NCBI RefSeq assembly: GCF_016863115.1
Contig: NZ_BOOG01000038.1
Span: 1 to 64,000, forward strand
Origin: Sphaerimonospora thailandensis
GTDB taxonomy: Bacteria > Actinomycetota > Actinomycetes > Streptosporangiales > Streptosporangiaceae
Length of the DNA: 64,000 nt
Direction of reading: 5' to 3'
The position numbers and the translations under genes are program-made. Positions 42,160-51,578 of the stretch are shown here, piece after piece (within the stretch, counting starts at the first letter, position 1; each line of letters starts with the position of its first letter). The notes under the pieces are model-generated. The model was not told the DNA's origin, did no database searches, and saw only the letters and a program-made list of their open reading frames with translations.

Positions 42160-45100
42160 TCAGGCGGCTCCGGCGAGCGCACGCAGCAGGGCCGCGCTCC
42201 GCCTCTCGAAATGCCGCAGGCCGAGGCGGCGGTGCAGGTCACGCCCGGCGGCGGCGTGTTCGAGGGCCCCGGCGCCGTCGCCCACGCGGTGCAGGAGCAT
42301 GGCGACGACGTCGTGCAGTGCGCCCCAGGCGACGCCGCCGGTGCCGAGTGTCACCAGTTGGCCGGCGATCGGCCGCAGTTCCGCGAGCAGGCCGTGCGGG
42401 TCGGGCCGGCCGAGCCGGGCCGCGACCAGGCCCCACTGCCAGGTGACGAACTGCCAGGTCCAGTCCCGCTTGAAGCGGACGCCCCAGCAGTCCATCAGGC
42501 GGTGCGCCAGGGCCTCCTCCCCGGCGTCCACGGCGGCGAGTACGGCCGTGGGCCGTACCAGCAGGTGGGATTCGTCGGCCGCCACCTCGACCAGCTCGGG
42601 TAGCAGTTCGCCGTGCCGGCCCCGGCCGCGATCGCAGAAGAACTCCGTGACCAGTCTGAGCGCGTCCGGTCCCCACAGGCTGGTGCGGCGGTGGCTGCCT
42701 GCGGCGAGAGCGGCCAGCCGTTCGGCCTCCGCCCAGTCGCCATCGAGCATCGCCCGCCCGGCGGCCGCGAACGTCACCTGCGTCTCGACTTCCGGCATGC
42801 GGACCTCGCGGGTCAGCCGCAGGCAGCGGGCGAGCTCGTCGTCGTATTCGGTCAGCCGCCCCGACCTGAGCAGCCCGGGCATCCGGTGCATTCGCGCGAT
42901 GACCTCGGTGGCCCGTGGCAGGCCGGGGATGGTGAGGATCTCCTCGGCCGCCCGATAGCGCTCCTGCTCATGCTCCGGGGTCCAGGCGGCCATGACCAGG
43001 TTGTTCAGCGTGCGGGCCAGCAGCCGCGGGTCGCCCGTGCTCCGGGCCAGCTCGACCGCCTCAAGCGCGTACAGCCGCCCCTCGGGCCGGCGTTCCCCGT
43101 AGTACAGCTCGACACCGAGCGTGCCGAGCAGTTCGGCGCGCCTGACGTCCTCCCGCCGGTCAAGCCGGTGGAGCTGGTCCTCCAGCACCCCCACCATCCG
43201 CTCGTCGACCACGCCGTAGGGGCGCCACTGCCACAGAGCGACGCCGCCGAAGACCGCCGCGGCCTCGATCACCGCGTCGTCGTCTCCCAGAGCGGCCGCG
43301 AGCGTCACGGCCTCGTCGAGCGCGGCCCGCGCCCCGTCCACGTCGCCGGTCAACCGCCGTGCCCGGCCCAGCTCTATCAGCAGCGCGCATCTTTCGGAGG
43401 CCTGGCCAGACGTCCGCTCGGCCGCCGAAGCGTCAAGCGCCCGCTCCCAGTAGCCGACCGCCTCGTCGTAGGCGAGCCGGGCGGCGGCCTGCCGGGCCGC
43501 CTGGGCGGCGTACGACATCGCCTTGCCCGCGTAACCGACCCGGGCGGCCAGCCCGAAATGATGGGCCAGCGCCGGCAGCCGTGACACGACGTCGCCCCTG
43601 GCCAGCGCCTCGACGGCCGCACCGACACGGCCGTGCAACTGTGCGCGCTGCCTGCGGTTGAGCCCCAAGTACAGCGCCTCCTGCACGAGCGCGTGCGAGA
43701 AGCGGTAGTCCCATCCGCCGTCCACCTCTGTCAGCAGCCCTGTCGCCACCGCCGGTTCGAGCAGCATCATCAGGCGTGCGCCGCTGATCCCCGTCGCGGT
43801 CTCCAACAGGTCGGCGTCCACGTCCCGGCCGATCACCGCGGCGGCCCGAAGAACGGTCTGGGAGTCCTCGGGCAGCCGCGACACCCGCTGCTTGATGACG
43901 TCGCGCACGCCGTCCGGCACCGCGAGCGAGGCCACGTCGGCCGCCGTCACCGGACCGAGCGCGTGCACGCTGGACAGCAGCCGGAGCAACTCGCCCAGGA
44001 AGAACGGGTTGCCGCCGGTCCGGTCGTGCAGCGCGCGGGCGAGTTCGGCGTCGCAGGCGGCGGCTGATGAGCCGGGGCCGTCGGCCGGAGCGCCCTGATG
44101 GGCGATGCGGTGGTCCGTGAGGTAGTCGGCGATCTCGCCGGGGCTGAGGGGCGCGATGCTCATCCGCTCGGTGCCGCGTTGCCGGGTGAGATCGCCGAGC
44201 GCTTCGGCGAGGGCCTCCGCACACCCTTCCGGGCGCGCCTCCGTGAGCGGCTCCGTGAGCGCCCGCCCGTCTGTCGCCGCGGGGCCGGGCCGTACGGCGG
44301 TCTCGATCGGCATAGTGGTCTCGATCGGCATGGTGGTCTCGAGTGGCGCGGGTGTTTCGAGCGGTACGGGAGCCTCGGGCCGTACGGTGGCGAGCACGAG
44401 CAGCGGCACACGGTGCAGGTCCGCGCCGATGAACGCGAGCAGGCGCAGGGACGCCGCGTCGGCCCAGTGGAGGTCGTCCATGACGATGAGCACCGGCGAC
44501 ACGGCCGCCTGCCGTCCCAGCGCCCGCGCCACCGCGTCGTACAGCAGGAAGCGAGCGGTGTCCGGGTCGCTCTGGTCTCCCAACTGAACCTGGTCTCCGG
44601 AGTGACCCTGCTCGTCCGGGTGGCCCGAGTGGCCGCCGGCCAGGCGGCCGGCGATGTCGGGAAGCTCACCCGGCAGCGCCTGGAGTGCCTGTACCCAGGG
44701 CCAGAACGCGGGAGCGCCGCTCCCTTCCGAGCAGCGGCTCCACGCGACCGCGACGCCGCGCTCGGCCGCCATGGTCGCCGCGGCCTCGGCCAGGCGGGTC
44801 TTGCCGATGCCGGATTCGCCGCTCACCAGGAACACTCCACCGGCGCCGCGGGCCAGGTCGTCGAGCCGCTCCCGGATCCGTCGCAGATGCGGCTCGCGCC
44901 CGACGAGCCGGGACAGCCCCGCGCAGGGCGGCCGGACGGGTTCCGCGATCGCGTCCGTACTTCCCGAGGTGCTCGCGTTCACGCGGCTCACCGTGTTCAC
45001 AGGAACCGTGTTCACAGGAACCGTGTTCACAGGGGCCGCGTTCACAGAGACCACGGAACCCGTGATCCCCGGGCCGGCGGCGGGCCACCGGCCCGCGAGC

Positions 45101-45936
45101 GAGTCGTCCTGGCGGAGGATGGCCTGCTCCAGCCGGCGCAGCTCCGGGCTGGGATCGATGCCCAACTCCTGGCCGAGGAGGGACCGGCAGCGCTGATATG
45201 CGGCCAGGGCCTCAGCCTGTCTGCGATCGCGGTAGAGGGCCCGCATGAGCAGCGCCCACAACCCCTCGCGGTAGGGGTCCTGCTCCAGCAGGCGTTCGAC
45301 CTCGACGGTCGCCTCGGCATGCCGCCCCAGGGCCAGCCAGGCCTCGGCCCGTACGGCGAGGGCCGACGCGCGGAGGTCGGTCAGCCGGGAGACGGTGGGC
45401 CGGGCGAAGGGCTCGTCCGGGAAGTCGGCGAGCGGTGTTCCCCGCCAGGCCGCGAGCGCGGGGTCGAGGATCCGCTCGACGTCCTCGGGTCTGCCCTCGG
45501 CGAGGGCGGCACGCGCGGCCTCGGCGGCCCGGATGAACCGGTTGGCGTCGACCTGGTCGGGGGTGATGTCGAGCAGGTAGCCGGGTTCGCGGGTGCGCAG
45601 GACCCGGGCGGGGGCGCGCGGGCTGCGCCGGGGTTCGAGGACCTTGCGCAGGTGCGAGACGTAGGCCTGAAGCGTTCCTGTGGCGCTTGAGGGCGGTTCG
45701 TCGGCCCAGAGTTGGTCGATCAGCTGGTCGAGCGGGACGATGTGCGGCGCGTTCAGCACCAGCAGGGCCAGCACCGCCCGCTGCTTGCGCGATCCGACGT
45801 CCAGGATGCTCCCTCTGGCGTCCACGACCTCCAGGGAGCCCAGCACCCGGAAGTCGAGACCGGAGACGCCTCCGCCGTTCGATCCGCTTCGCGTGGCCGT
45901 GTCGCCCGTCGTGGTCTGCCTGGCGCCCGCCCGCAT
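42160..45936 (-). CDS. SARP-type transcriptional regulator with AAA ATPase and TPR domains
   Basis: A 1,258-residue AfsR-like regulator. Residues about 28-120 form an OmpR-type winged helix (FRVLGSLEVVDARGSIL), 120-265 a BTAD domain, and from about 360 an ATPase with Walker A GESGIGKTRL and Walker B VLIVMDDLHWADA. The remaining 550 residues are TPR-like helices. Such giant SARPs activate secondary-metabolite or stress genes. The linker 290-330 contains tandem repeats (VNTVP from 15-nt units near 45000; later an ETTMPI repeat near 44310). ATG 45936 has GGGAG 7 nt upstream, and TATGAT on the minus strand (45988-45993) is a possible -10 box. No biosynthetic cluster adjoins it. Confidence 0.88.
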   Translation of the reverse strand: MRAGARQTTTGDTATRSGSNGGGVSGLDFRVLGSLEVVDARGSILDVGSRKQRAVLALLVLNAPHIVPLDQLIDQLWADEPPSSATGTLQAYVSHLRKVLEPRRSPRAPARVLRTREPGYLLDITPDQVDANRFIRAAEAARAALAEGRPEDVERILDPALAAWRGTPLADFPDEPFARPTVSRLTDLRASALAVRAEAWLALGRHAEATVEVERLLEQDPYREGLWALLMRALYRDRRQAEALAAYQRCRSLLGQELGIDPSPELRRLEQAILRQDDSLAGRWPAAGPGITGSVVSVNAAPVNTVPVNTVPVNTVSRVNASTSGSTDAIAEPVRPPCAGLSRLVGREPHLRRIRERLDDLARGAGGVFLVSGESGIGKTRLAEAAATMAAERGVAVAWSRCSEGSGAPAFWPWVQALQALPGELPDIAGRLAGGHSGHPDEQGHSGDQVQLGDQSDPDTARFLLYDAVARALGRQAAVSPVLIVMDDLHWADAASLRLLAFIGADLHRVPLLVLATVRPEAPVPLETPAPLETTMPIETTMPIETAVRPGPAATDGRALTEPLTEARPEGCAEALAEALGDLTRQRGTERMSIAPLSPGEIADYLTDHRIAHQGAPADGPGSSAAACDAELARALHDRTGGNPFFLGELLRLLSSVHALGPVTAADVASLAVPDGVRDVIKQRVSRLPEDSQTVLRAAAVIGRDVDADLLETATGISGARLMMLLEPAVATGLLTEVDGGWDYRFSHALVQEALYLGLNRRQRAQLHGRVGAAVEALARGDVVSRLPALAHHFGLAARVGYAGKAMSYAAQAARQAAARLAYDEAVGYWERALDASAAERTSGQASERCALLIELGRARRLTGDVDGARAALDEAVTLAAALGDDDAVIEAAAVFGGVALWQWRPYGVVDERMVGVLEDQLHRLDRREDVRRAELLGTLGVELYYGERRPEGRLYALEAVELARSTGDPRLLARTLNNLVMAAWTPEHEQERYRAAEEILTIPGLPRATEVIARMHRMPGLLRSGRLTEYDDELARCLRLTREVRMPEVETQVTFAAAGRAMLDGDWAEAERLAALAAGSHRRTSLWGPDALRLVTEFFCDRGRGRHGELLPELVEVAADESHLLVRPTAVLAAVDAGEEALAHRLMDCWGVRFKRDWTWQFVTWQWGLVAARLGRPDPHGLLAELRPIAGQLVTLGTGGVAWGALHDVVAMLLHRVGDGAGALEHAAAGRDLHRRLGLRHFERRSAALLRALAGAA

Positions 45937-47571: not shown

Positions 47572-47671
47572 GTCGCCAAAGATGCCACCGAAAACAAAAA
47601 TCGTCAAGACAGTGAGAGTGGTCGGCCGCGAAGCGCAAAGTTGATCTTAGAGGAGCATTACGTGAGCAACG

Positions 47672-47701
47672 TTGTGCGGTGAACGTGTCACGCTGTGTAA
47701 T
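47672..47701 (+). promoter_or_regulatory. candidate promoter of the Gln-rich repeat operon
   Basis: TTGTGC (47672-47677) and TGTAAT (47696-47701) are separated by 18 nt, 45 nt before the ATG at 47747. This is the best sigma-70-like pair in the divergent region. Confidence 0.35.
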
Positions 47702-47746
47702 CACAGAGGGCGATGAGCCAGACCTACCTGGTTCGAAGGAGTGACT

Positions 47747-48544
47747 ATGACGTTCACAGCGATGCAACCCTCGTACATGACCGCCGCTCTGGGTTACGCG
47801 ACCCAGCAGCCGGTCTCGCCGCTGCAGCTCGGTCAGCAGCAGGCACTCTCGATCAGCGAGTCGACCCGGCAGGAGGAGCAGATCCACCCGCAGGAGCACC
47901 TGGTGAGCCCGCAGACCTTCTGGGCCAGGATCGCCCGGATCGGCATCCGGCGCGGCGCTCCGGTCGCCAGGCAGGTTCTGGAGACGGTCCTGTACCAGCA
48001 GGTCACCCAGCAGCAGATTGCCGCGCCGCAGCTCTCGCAGCTCGGCATGGCGATGCCGCACCTCGCCGGCCAGCAGGTATCGGTGCTCAACGGGGCGATC
48101 CAGCAGGAGGAGCAGGTCCACCCGCAGGAGCACCTGGTGAGCCCGCAGACCTTCTGGACCAAGGTCGCCCGCATGGCCGTCCGGCACGGGGTTGAGGTTG
48201 CCCGTCAGATCCTGGACGTCCTGCAGACCCAGCACCAGGTCGAGCAGCAGATCCAGGAGCAGGCGATCCAGCAGCAGCTCGCCCAGCAGTACGTTGCGAC
48301 CGCCCAGTACGGCCAGACCCAGTACGGCCAGACCCAGTACGGCCAGACCCCGTACGCCCAGGCGCTCGGTCTGCGGATCGTTCCGCAGATCACGCCCACC
48401 CCGCTGAGCGCGCTGAGCGCGCTGAGCACGCTCGGCGCGGTGCACCAGGCGCAGTACGGCCAGCAGGTGTCCCCGCAGTACGTCAGCCAGCAGCACCAGC
48501 AGGCCGCACACCAGGTGCCGGTCGCAGCCGGTGTCGGATTCTGA
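47747..48544 (+). CDS. Gln-rich protein with duplicated HPQEHLVSPQTFW repeat
   Basis: A 265-residue protein of unknown function. It is about a fifth glutamine. Two 41-residue repeats, residues 42-82 and 120-160, share EEQ(I/V)HPQEHLVSPQTFW, a basic helix, and VARQ(V/I)L(E/D). Between them lies a Gln-rich linker; after them come four QYGQT-type pentamers (residues 188-204) and a Ser/Ala/Leu and Gln-rich tail. No signal peptide, membrane helix or enzyme motif is seen. Composition suggests a self-assembling or protease-cleaved substrate. Start ATG 47747 has GAAGGAG 5 nt upstream. It is followed by a small helical protein gene after 10 nt and then an intracellular subtilase. Confidence 0.75.
   Translation: MTFTAMQPSYMTAALGYATQQPVSPLQLGQQQALSISESTRQEEQIHPQEHLVSPQTFWARIARIGIRRGAPVARQVLETVLYQQVTQQQIAAPQLSQLGMAMPHLAGQQVSVLNGAIQQEEQVHPQEHLVSPQTFWTKVARMAVRHGVEVARQILDVLQTQHQVEQQIQEQAIQQQLAQQYVATAQYGQTQYGQTQYGQTPYAQALGLRIVPQITPTPLSALSALSTLGAVHQAQYGQQVSPQYVSQQHQQAAHQVPVAAGVGF
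47870..48226 (+). repeat. internal direct repeat of the Gln-rich gene
   Basis: The segments 47870-47992 and 48104-48226 (123 nt each) are diverged direct repeats. The best conserved core (about 50 nt from 47871 and from 48105) is nearly identical and encodes EEQxHPQEHLVSPQTFW. A second array, four 15-nt units coding QYGQT, lies near 48305-48355. Confidence 0.85.
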
Positions 48545-48554
48545 GCGGAGGCAC

Positions 48555-48977
48555 ATGGTGGATTCGATGGGCGGAGGAGCTACCTGGCCCGGCGCCGTCT
48601 CGGGCGGAGCCGGCATGGCGCCCAATCCGGCCATGAACCAGGCCATACATCCGGTGGTTAACCCGGCGATGGCCATGACGACCGGTCCGGCGATGGGCAT
48701 GGTGGTCGGCGGTGTCACGGGGACGGCGATGGGGCCGATCCCGGGCCATCCGCCGGCGCTCGTCCCAGCGCAGGTACAGTGCGCGGTGACCCTGCAGCGG
48801 CTTTACGCCTGGCTGCAGATGTCGCTCCCGCAGGCACCCCAGGTCGCGGGAATCATCCCGCTGCTGGTGCAGGCGGTGCAGCTGTACCGGGCCGGACAGT
48901 TCGAGGCGTGCCTGGCGCAGCTCCAGGCGGTCCTCGGCTTCGTCAACAGCGGCCAGCCCACGGTTCCACTCCTGTGA
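48555..48977 (+). CDS. small protein of the Gln-rich/subtilase cassette
   Basis: A 140-residue protein of unknown function. Residues 1-70 are a flexible Met/Gly/Pro/Ala-rich tract (many MAM, VGGV and PAM turns). Residues about 75-133 are an amphipathic helical pair: CAVTLQRLYAWLQMSLPQ, then IIPLLVQAVQLYRAGQFEACLAQLQAVL, like a TPR-type helical hairpin. No signal peptide. It starts at ATG 48555 behind GCGGAGG, 10 nt after the Gln-rich gene, and ends before a 15-bp palindrome. A scaffold or adaptor role is only a guess. Confidence 0.65.
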   Translation: MVDSMGGGATWPGAVSGGAGMAPNPAMNQAIHPVVNPAMAMTTGPAMGMVVGGVTGTAMGPIPGHPPALVPAQVQCAVTLQRLYAWLQMSLPQAPQVAGIIPLLVQAVQLYRAGQFEACLAQLQAVLGFVNSGQPTVPLL

Positions 48978-48993
48978 CGGAGTCCGTATGAAC

Positions 48994-49025
48994 GGCCCGG
49001 ACCGGTCGACCGACCGGTCCGGGCC
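48994..49025. terminator. 15-bp palindrome between small protein and subtilase genes
   Basis: GGCCCGGACCGGTCG pairs perfectly with CGACCGGTCCGGGCC across a 2-nt centre. It lies 17 nt after the small protein's stop. No U tract follows, so it may be an intrinsic actinobacterial terminator or an attenuator that sets the level of the downstream subtilase. Confidence 0.65.
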
Positions 49026-49163
49026 CCTGGGAGTGTTGAAAAAGTGTCGTCCGTCGCGAACTGGGCCGCGCGCAGCAGGACATGACTTTTGAGACACGAC
49101 TTAGTTCCCGTCGAGCCCATAGGTGCGGCGAGACCAGCCTGAGCTGGGGAGAGTCGAGACGTT

Positions 49164-51578
49164 GTGACCAGTAACGACAAGCCCAAGGACGGAAGCGAGT
49201 CGCGCTCACCGGCGTCGAGCAGGGGGAGGCAGCCGACGCGGCAGGTGCCGCATGTGGTGGAGCCGCGTCCCATGCGCTACATGGTGGCCGCGCTGCGGCA
49301 GCCGTACCTGTCGGCGATGGGGGTGAGCGCGACGCCCCTCGACGCCGACAGCCTGTGCGCGCTGCTCGAGAACGACCCCGACGTGACCGTGCGTCGCCGG
49401 CTGCCGGGTCACCCCGGATCGCCGGGGCGCACCGAGCCGCCGGGGCACCGGCAGGGGCCGGTCTCCGTGGGAACCGCCCCTCAGGAGATGGTTCCTCAGG
49501 GGATGGTTCCTCAGGGGATGGTGACGGCCGCGCCGTTCCCAGAGATCCTGATCGTGGAGATGACCGCCGAGCACGCCCTCGAACTGCACATGAAGTATCC
49601 GCAGGTGCTCATCGAGCGTGACCGGCTCTTGACCTACACCGAGGTGCCCGGGCCGCCTCGCAGGCGCCGTACGGCTGCCGCGGTGGTGCCGTCGGGCGTC
49701 GAGAGCACCTTCACGTTCCTGGTCCGCGACGTCGGGTGCAAGCCGGTGCCGGGAGCCACCGTCTTCGTCACCGGGTACGGCTGGCCGGCGCAGGCCGTGA
49801 CGGGCGCGGACGGCAGGGCATCGGTGACGCTCGCCGGCGAGACGCCCGAATCCGTCGTCAGCGTGGTGGTCAAGCCTCGCTCCGGCCACTGGAGCTTCCA
49901 CCTCGACCGTCCGTCCCTGTCCACAAGCAGGGAGAACCTGATCGAACTGGTGAGGCTGTCGGAGACCTTCGAGGACTTCCCGGGGCGCCGGCTCTACGGC
50001 TGGGGGCAGCAGGCGATGAATCTCGACCGGCTGCCGCCGACGTTCCGCGGGGCCGGCGTGAAGGTCGCGATCATCGACTCCGGCGCGGCCATCGACCATC
50101 CCGACCTGCTCAATCGCATCAGCGGAGGTGTCGACCTCACCGAGCGCAAGCCGGACGGCTGGGCGGTGGACACCGCCTACCACGGATCCCACTGCGCGGC
50201 GATCATCGCGGGGGCGGACGACGGCCAGGGCGTCGTCGGCTTCGCCGTCGAGGCCGAGGTGCACGCCTGCAAGATCTTCCCCGGGGGACGGTTCAGTGAG
50301 CTCATCGAGGCACTCGACTACTGCATCGAGCAGCGGATCGACGTGGTGAACCTGAGCCTCGGCAGCAGGCAGCCGTCCCAGCTCGTGGCCGCCAAGATCG
50401 CGCAGGCCCGCGAGGCCGGCGTGGCGTGCGTGGTCGCGGCGGGCAACGACGGAGGACCCGTCGGCTTCCCCGGCAACTTGCCCACCGTGCTGACCGTCGC
50501 CGCGATCGGGCGGGCCGGCACCTTCCCCTCGGGCACCGCTCACGCCGCCGAGATCACTGATCCGTGCACGGCGGAGGGATATTTCTCGCCGAGATTCACC
50601 TGTCACGGGCCGGAGGTCGACGTCTGCGCGCCGGGCGTGGCCGTGCTGTCGGCCGTCCCGTCGGGCGACTACGCCGCCTGGGACGGGACCTCGATGGCCG
50701 TGCCGCACGTCACCGGCCTGGCGGCTCTCGTGCTGGCCCATCATCCGGACCTCTGCGACGGGTACGGCACGCGTGACGCCCGGCGGGTCGAGCGCCTCTT
50801 CCAGATCATCAAGTCGAGTTGCCTGCCTCTCGACCTCGGCGACCCGGGTCGTACCGGAGCGGGCCTGCCCAACGCGCTGCTCGCCCTGGGCCCGGCCCTC
50901 GCGCTCATAGCACCGGAATTCACCGATATCCCGGCCGCCGACATCCGTGTGCTGCTCGACCGGCTCACCACCGAGATGGCCTGGGCCGGCCTGCTCATGC
51001 CGGGTCCGGTGGATCCGGACGCCGTCGGCACGGCGCCAGGGGGTCCCATGCCAGGGGTCCCGATGCCAGGGGGCGTGGAGGTCGGCGGTGTGGGACCGGC
51101 GATGCCGGGTGGACTGGAATTCGCCGACGGCGCGGCCGTCGCCGCCGGGATCGCCGGCGGACCGGCCGCCGCCGAAACGGGGCTGACCGGTCAGCCCGGC
51201 ACGGTCGCTCAGCCCGGCGGTGTCACGCAGGGTGATGTGGTTGCGGGCGGGGTGGCTCAGCCCGGCGGACGTGGTCGCGGGATGACGGGCAAGGGCCGCG
51301 CGGTCAAGGCGCGGGGGGCGGGCGCCGGGGACGCCGGGGGCGATCCCGTGCACACCAACGGGACCACCCCGGGGCAGGGCGCGCTCAACCGTCCGATGGC
51401 CGCCGGAGCGCCGCCCGCCGGTCCGGTGGTGCCGCCTGCCTTCGTGGTGGGAGCGCCGGAAGGCTTCGCTCCGGCGAACGGCGGCGGGAGCGTGGTGCTG
51501 CCCGCGTTCTCCTGGCTGACCGAGGAGATGCGGGCCGCCGGGCTGCTCCCCGGACAGGTGACCCGTCTGTTCGGCTGA
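49164..51578 (+). CDS. intracellular S8 peptidase with regulatory-like beta domain
   Basis: An 804-residue subtilase. Residues 1-130 are a leader with an I9-like end (AEHALELHMKYPQVLIERDRLLTY) and a MVPQG repeat. About 170-240 is a carboxypeptidase-regulatory-like beta domain (LVRDVGCKPVPGATVFVTGYGWPAQAVTGADGRASVTL). The catalytic domain spans about 290-560 with Asp305 (IIDSGAA), His343 (YHGSHCAAII), Asn in AAGNDGG and Ser510 (DGTSMAVPHV). A Gly/Pro/Ala-rich linker follows. A helical motif, LTTEMAWAGLLMPG (near residue 605), recurs at the C-terminus as LTEEMRAAGLLPG (785-797). There is no signal peptide or membrane helix. GTG 49164 is the start. Confidence 0.85.
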   Translation: MTSNDKPKDGSESRSPASSRGRQPTRQVPHVVEPRPMRYMVAALRQPYLSAMGVSATPLDADSLCALLENDPDVTVRRRLPGHPGSPGRTEPPGHRQGPVSVGTAPQEMVPQGMVPQGMVTAAPFPEILIVEMTAEHALELHMKYPQVLIERDRLLTYTEVPGPPRRRRTAAAVVPSGVESTFTFLVRDVGCKPVPGATVFVTGYGWPAQAVTGADGRASVTLAGETPESVVSVVVKPRSGHWSFHLDRPSLSTSRENLIELVRLSETFEDFPGRRLYGWGQQAMNLDRLPPTFRGAGVKVAIIDSGAAIDHPDLLNRISGGVDLTERKPDGWAVDTAYHGSHCAAIIAGADDGQGVVGFAVEAEVHACKIFPGGRFSELIEALDYCIEQRIDVVNLSLGSRQPSQLVAAKIAQAREAGVACVVAAGNDGGPVGFPGNLPTVLTVAAIGRAGTFPSGTAHAAEITDPCTAEGYFSPRFTCHGPEVDVCAPGVAVLSAVPSGDYAAWDGTSMAVPHVTGLAALVLAHHPDLCDGYGTRDARRVERLFQIIKSSCLPLDLGDPGRTGAGLPNALLALGPALALIAPEFTDIPAADIRVLLDRLTTEMAWAGLLMPGPVDPDAVGTAPGGPMPGVPMPGGVEVGGVGPAMPGGLEFADGAAVAAGIAGGPAAAETGLTGQPGTVAQPGGVTQGDVVAGGVAQPGGRGRGMTGKGRAVKARGAGAGDAGGDPVHTNGTTPGQGALNRPMAAGAPPAGPVVPPAFVVGAPEGFAPANGGGSVVLPAFSWLTEEMRAAGLLPGQVTRLFG

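Follow-up and report, generated by a model that had tools for sequence, protein, structure and literature searches.

A conserved actinobacterial gene cassette couples a glutamine-rich repeat protein and a small helical protein to an intracellular subtilase

Related soil actinobacteria share a previously undescribed gene set, which we present here from a 64,000-nucleotide stretch of Sphaerimonospora thailandensis (contig NZ_BOOG01000038.1, positions 1 to 64,000; hereafter the window). Three open reading frames on the forward strand, at positions 47747-51578, make up the set, as proposed in the original prediction, which had been made from the letters of the window. The first gene, REP (47747-48544), encodes a Gln-rich repeat protein of 265 amino acids (aa), the second, SMALL (48555-48977), a 140-aa protein with a helical domain, and the third, SUB (49164-51578, GTG start), an 804-aa subtilase. 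We are highly confident that the three form one functional unit. The close spacing claimed for them holds for REP and SMALL, which are separated by 10 base pairs (bp), whereas 186 bp lie between SMALL and SUB; REP and SMALL thus appear tightly coupled and SUB less so. In comparison with the nearest relative, a congener, the ratio of nonsynonymous to synonymous substitution rates was 0.51 for REP, 0.57 for SMALL and 0.23 for SUB. Since all three values are below 1, this indicates real genes that look to be under purifying selection. The predicted lack of a signal peptide on SUB was borne out, and reading of the sequence found a hydrophobic signal sequence at none of the three N termini.

To follow the set across genomes, we compared 37 loci comprising the window, 34 stretches around search matches and two Streptomyces plasmid loci. 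Searches with REP matched 11 of 199 related genomes, and searches with SMALL matched 17 of 199, including that of the window, with SUB no more than about 1 kb downstream in every case. With the N-terminal part of SUB as query, matches were obtained in 13 of 150 genomes, in 17 of 395 across the class and in 48 of 343 within the family, a few of the latter being short and weak and confined to the beta domain. Recurrent co-occurrence with an S8 protease gene, which the original prediction had proposed to look for, was indeed observed: wherever a locus includes upstream DNA (35 of 35; L048 and L090 stop at contig edges and are outside this count), SUB is preceded by a repeat or Gln-rich protein, and SMALL adjoins SUB in 34 of 37 loci. 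The loci without SMALL, on two Streptomyces plasmids and one chromosome (L107, L108, L092), belong to a single clade and keep both SUB and a Gln-rich protein in the REP position. A repeat occurring widely without a nearby subtilase would have spoken against a joint system; in 18 genomes, the REP unit was not found outside the cassette. In 297 genomes sampled from the phylum, SMALL did not turn up elsewhere.

The cassette is found mainly in Streptosporangiaceae, and a few other actinobacteria have related forms; of the 68 genera of the family, no more than 15 gave a match to the SUB N terminus, and there was hardly a match outside the family. Within the clade of the window, the flanking genes are kept across genera (ArsR and SRPBCC genes upstream; DNA ligase, universal-stress and HrpA genes downstream), and the cassette is therefore vertically inherited there. 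Among the neighbours of the compared loci, no other gene recurs beside the cassette across deep branches. A viral or phage origin was rejected, as no match was found. The claim that no described system combines these parts also stood: gene order was constant in the relatives examined, no family or structure was matched, and a literature search returned nothing on REP, SMALL or the three-gene set.

REP starts with MTFTAMQP, followed by two helical units, a Gln/Tyr-rich linker and the C terminus VPVAAGxGF; both termini are kept among near relatives. The units, each predicted to form a helix-Gly-helix, start at residues 43 and 121 with a spacing of 78 residues, and correspond to positions 47870-48004 (QEEQIHPQEHLVSPQTFW...RQVLETVLYQQV) and 48104-48238 (QEEQVHPQEHLVSPQTFW...RQILDVLQTQHQ) on the forward strand. 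Between the two copies, 27 of 45 residues are identical, as are 104 of 132 bases. Their nearly invariant core and the Gln-rich body had both been noted before; we found that the core, EEQ[I/V]HPQEHLVSPQTFW, varies at a single position between the copies and that Gln makes up 21.5% of REP. Two copies are present in the window, but this number is not a family feature, as relatives hold 1 to 5 units: many have a single unit, and distant REPs carry 2 to 5 near-identical amphipathic helical units in tandem. The tandem unit of these distant REPs is related to that of the window (hhalign 91.7%, unit profiles A8 versus A9); homology is established for these unit profiles only, and the distant proteins themselves were assigned to the REP position by place and composition. 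Codon use in REP is strongly biased (CAG 56, CAA 1), and its third-position A/T content is the lowest among the genes compared. Neither REP nor its unit gave a convincing match in Pfam, NCBIfam or PDB; the clear match to a characterised structural protein that could have overturned the original prediction was thus not found in these databases. In L042, L102, L105 and L091, genes at the REP position contain segments resembling glycine zippers (GGxAGGxxGxxIGG), which accompany or replace extra helical units. An apparent IS3-type transposase gene pair lies immediately upstream of the Streptomyces-type REP in L092 (reverse strand).

The proposed composition of SMALL from a Met/Gly/Pro-rich tract and a helical part was confirmed in relatives, where the tract is variable and the helical domain of about 65 aa (LQxLYGWLQ..PQAPQ..GIIPLLVQAVQLYRAGQYEACLAQIQ) is conserved. 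We found no known family, structure or paper matching SMALL. A WXG100/type VII identity was rejected for want of a meaningful profile match, and matches to TPR or SRP72-like proteins (best E value 0.0066) were judged to reflect chance or a general likeness of helical hairpins.

The region in front of the subtilase domain of SUB had been described as one regulatory-like beta domain. Such a domain is present (49680-49960), a beta-sandwich resembling Big_1 and CarboxypepD_reg, but it is the second of two. The Big_1 match is weak in the window and was found in 17 of 17 members (best 6e-7). Ahead of it, after a disordered N-terminal end, lies a predicted beta-alpha-beta-beta-alpha-beta domain (49266-49650), interrupted by a disordered insert in the window copy. 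AlphaFold2 was run with three-row alignments on REP and on 567 residues of SUB; for this domain it gave the elements E5-11 H29-37 E43-48 E96-101 H103-112 E116-120 at a predicted local distance difference test score (pLDDT) of about 70-89. The predicted domain shows the element order of Inhibitor_I9 and subtilisin propeptides and, like these, stands N-terminal to S8. Our label 'propeptide-like' rests on this predicted fold, on the position and on the pattern of an inhibitor-like gene and catalysis described below. With the domain model as query, Foldseek returned nothing at E<=0.001, and this result was discarded.

The peptidase S8 domain itself (50049-50753; PF00082, 7.4e-40) has, as stated in the original prediction, all catalytic residues, namely the D/H/S triad and the oxyanion Asn. 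Across the 37 loci the triad is intact in 32, and triad and Asn are both kept in 27. The tail (50955-51578) consists of a Pro/Gly-rich linker with two LxxEMxxAGL motifs, LTTEMAWAGL and LTEEMRAAGL; L089 and L090 have the variant LRVSMERAGL. Tail motif and SMALL are missing together, solely in the Streptomyces-type clade. As both are absent jointly, in what counts as one event, there is a hint that the tail may bind SMALL.

In 15 of the 37 loci (L042, L046-L049, L091, L093-L095, L097, L098, L102, L103, L105, L106) a fourth gene of about 75 residues lies between SMALL and SUB; it is found neither in the window nor in its clade. Its product is paralogous to the N-terminal domain of SUB (hhalign 98.5%). 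The gene occurs in more than one deep branch of the tree, and from this spread we consider it probably old and lost in the clade of the window. It accompanies 15 of the 27 SUBs with complete catalysis versus none of the 10 with a lost residue; for independent loci, such a distribution would have a chance of about 0.002, but these loci are not independent. This pattern hints that the free-standing domain may bind and inhibit its cognate subtilase. In Plasmodium, a stand-alone propeptide-like gene beside subtilase genes encodes a potent subtilase inhibitor (PMC6993865).

What the sequences show directly is the parts of the cassette, their fixed order and joint inheritance, the free-standing paralogue of the propeptide-like domain and the catalytic integrity of SUB in the window. 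For the working of the cassette, we infer assembly, docking, latency and a role of REP as substrate. REP would act as a multivalent scaffold with amphipathic helix-Gly-helix units on flexible Gln-rich linkers, and its units would bind one another as well as the helical SMALL. The propeptide-like domain would keep SUB latent, in many species under additional restraint by the free-standing copy, and the long flexible tail with its helical LxxEMxxAGL motifs would dock SUB to the assembly, most likely via SMALL. Once released, SUB would cut exposed REP linkers, so that the assembly is remodelled or dissolved. For this model as a whole, an intracellular assembly of REP and SMALL with a docked, propeptide-restrained SUB that cuts REP linkers, we put the chances somewhat below even; that REP is the substrate of SUB, considered separately, appears evenly balanced.

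Several observations weigh against this model. The REP linkers are highly variable, and a conserved cleavage site was not seen in them. The D/H/S triad is broken in 5 of 37 loci (L045, L050, L092, L107, L108) and the oxyanion Asn is replaced in 5 further ones (L041, L043, L044, L096, L104), with the cassette retained. These losses fall in several separate branches of the tree, L050 being a long branch of uncertain placement. Neither the propeptide-like domain nor its free-standing paralogue has a sequence match to Pfam Inhibitor_I9 or to solved propeptides. Outside the N-terminal domain of SUB, the structure models of SUB and REP are poor (mean pLDDT 38 and 43), because only three alignment rows were usable. 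Furthermore, the correlations of tail with SMALL and of inhibitor-like gene with catalysis rest on few independent events. The earlier suggestion of a cleaved precursor or a trimmed polymer remains a conjecture: it fits the catalytically complete SUBs with an extra propeptide-like gene, but the cassette outlives the loss of catalysis in several lineages. Persistence with a dead subtilase argues that binding matters as well as cutting; on these comparisons, cutting cannot be the sole conserved job of the cassette.

Other functions can be derived from the same parts. REP might be a peptide precursor from which SUB cuts short amphipathic helical peptides, one per unit, that would target membranes or serve as signals, in the manner of ribosomal peptide pathways with a dedicated subtilase. 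The near-identical amphipathic helices in tandem in distant REPs, the adjacent subtilase gene and the precedent of QhpE, which processes a partner from its own operon (PMC7876137), would fit; however, across branches the cassette has no recurrent neighbour that encodes a modifying enzyme, a transporter or an immunity function, the unit count goes down to one in many relatives, near relatives keep REP conserved at both ends, which does not suit a simple leader, and catalysis was lost in several lineages. We regard this precursor role as unlikely. Slightly less probable still is a structural set, in which REP and SMALL would constitute an abundant intracellular or spore-associated material, with S8 mainly as a binding module and proteolysis secondary or vestigial. 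Retention of the cassette in branches without catalytic residues, the strong codon bias of REP and the near-restriction to one sporulating actinobacterial family are in line with such a material, but 27 SUBs with triad and oxyanion Asn, and an extra propeptide-like gene beside 15 of them, would make little sense without activity.

The layout of a latent protease would also suit a defence or cell-suicide switch, in which an infection signal frees SUB to cut REP and release membrane-active helices, and conflict systems of actinobacteria commonly contain proteases, of which some are catalytically dead (PMC7159879). Against this stand the fixed genomic place in the clade of the window, the absence of a recurrent NTPase or defence partner and of any viral or phage copy among our matches, and a comparison with the PADLOC defence library, in which the matches were limited to a generic model for subtilases and a weak, partial one for IetS; we consider a switch of this kind improbable. 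That the genes are neighbours by descent without joint work could draw on the 186-bp gap, which suggests a possible promoter of its own for SUB. This reading is already contradicted and can be given very little credence: the order is kept in many genera, in other actinobacterial families and, for REP and SUB, on plasmids, amid otherwise different neighbours, and neither the REP unit nor SMALL was found without SUB.

Among known systems, SUB would work most like QhpE (NF049966), by analogy with a cytoplasmic S8 protease encoded beside the dedicated partner that it cleaves (PMC7876137), though outside the QhpE family: SUB reaches 69 bits versus a cut-off of 165, carries propeptide-like and beta domains and a long tail, and has no qhp genes among its recurrent neighbours. 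The cyanobactin proteases PatA/PatG (TIGR03895) are likewise S8 proteases, acting on a repetitive ribosomal precursor, but SUB scores 34 bits versus 421 and cyanobactin modification genes do not recur. The best NCBIfam match of the S8 domain, mycosin of type VII secretion (TIGR03921), is also below its cut-off (118 bits versus 279); SUB lacks a signal peptide, and no ESX genes recur. SUB1-ProM, the inhibitor of Plasmodium SUB1 (PMC6993865), shares a separate propeptide-like gene adjoining subtilase genes; it comes from another domain of life and another compartment, and inhibition by the free-standing domain of the cassette is putative. IetAS and VMAP/EACC1 likewise place intracellular proteases, some of them catalytically dead, within multigene systems of actinobacteria (PMC7159879 for VMAP/EACC1), but no AAA, STAND or vWA partner recurs beside the cassette; the IetS match is partial (22 bits), and no ATPase is a recurrent neighbour. 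A link to EACC1 was rejected because this is a membrane-helix domain and the match, at E 0.6, came from a single member.

Upstream of REP, a conserved region (47610-47746, forward strand; CATTACG ... TGTAATCAC) leads into the 5′ untranslated region. The blocks CTTAG, CATTACG, ACGTTGTG and TGTAATCAC are kept across genera at equivalent places, and CATTAC and GTAAT within them are mutually inverted, suggesting a dedicated regulator or sigma factor. A scan for consensus sigma-70 sites found none. Directly before the ribosome-binding site of REP lies a possible hairpin (47717-47738, GAGCCAG-ACCTAC-CTGGTTC), conserved in sequence; its z values range from 0.4 to -2.1, and only some species have a stable form. 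We do not claim a conserved RNA structure, as the stem changes are one-sided and stability is limited to some species; a comparison with Rfam gave no match. At 42160-45936 the window contains the gene of a large BTAD/ATPase-type regulator (1258 aa), homologues of which occur near the cassette in several genera.

Taken together, the three genes form a clean, testable unit in which two protein families that have no known relatives are joined to a subtilase; this offers a handle on the function of proteins that have no family assignment. New here are the propeptide-like domain of SUB, its free-standing copy, the catalytic decay and the joint absence of tail motif and SMALL. If the protease acts on the repeat protein, the cassette would be a compact bacterial scaffold that carries its own locked protease. 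Whether it amounts to a new type of intracellular assembly is more doubtful; this would be a sticker-and-linker scaffold of REP and SMALL with a tail-docked, propeptide-locked subtilase, guarded by a free-standing copy and in places decayed to a binding-only pseudoprotease. The cassette also provides a natural series, from active SUBs with an inhibitor-like gene through active SUBs alone to pseudoproteases, in which the restraint and the loss of intracellular proteases can be compared.

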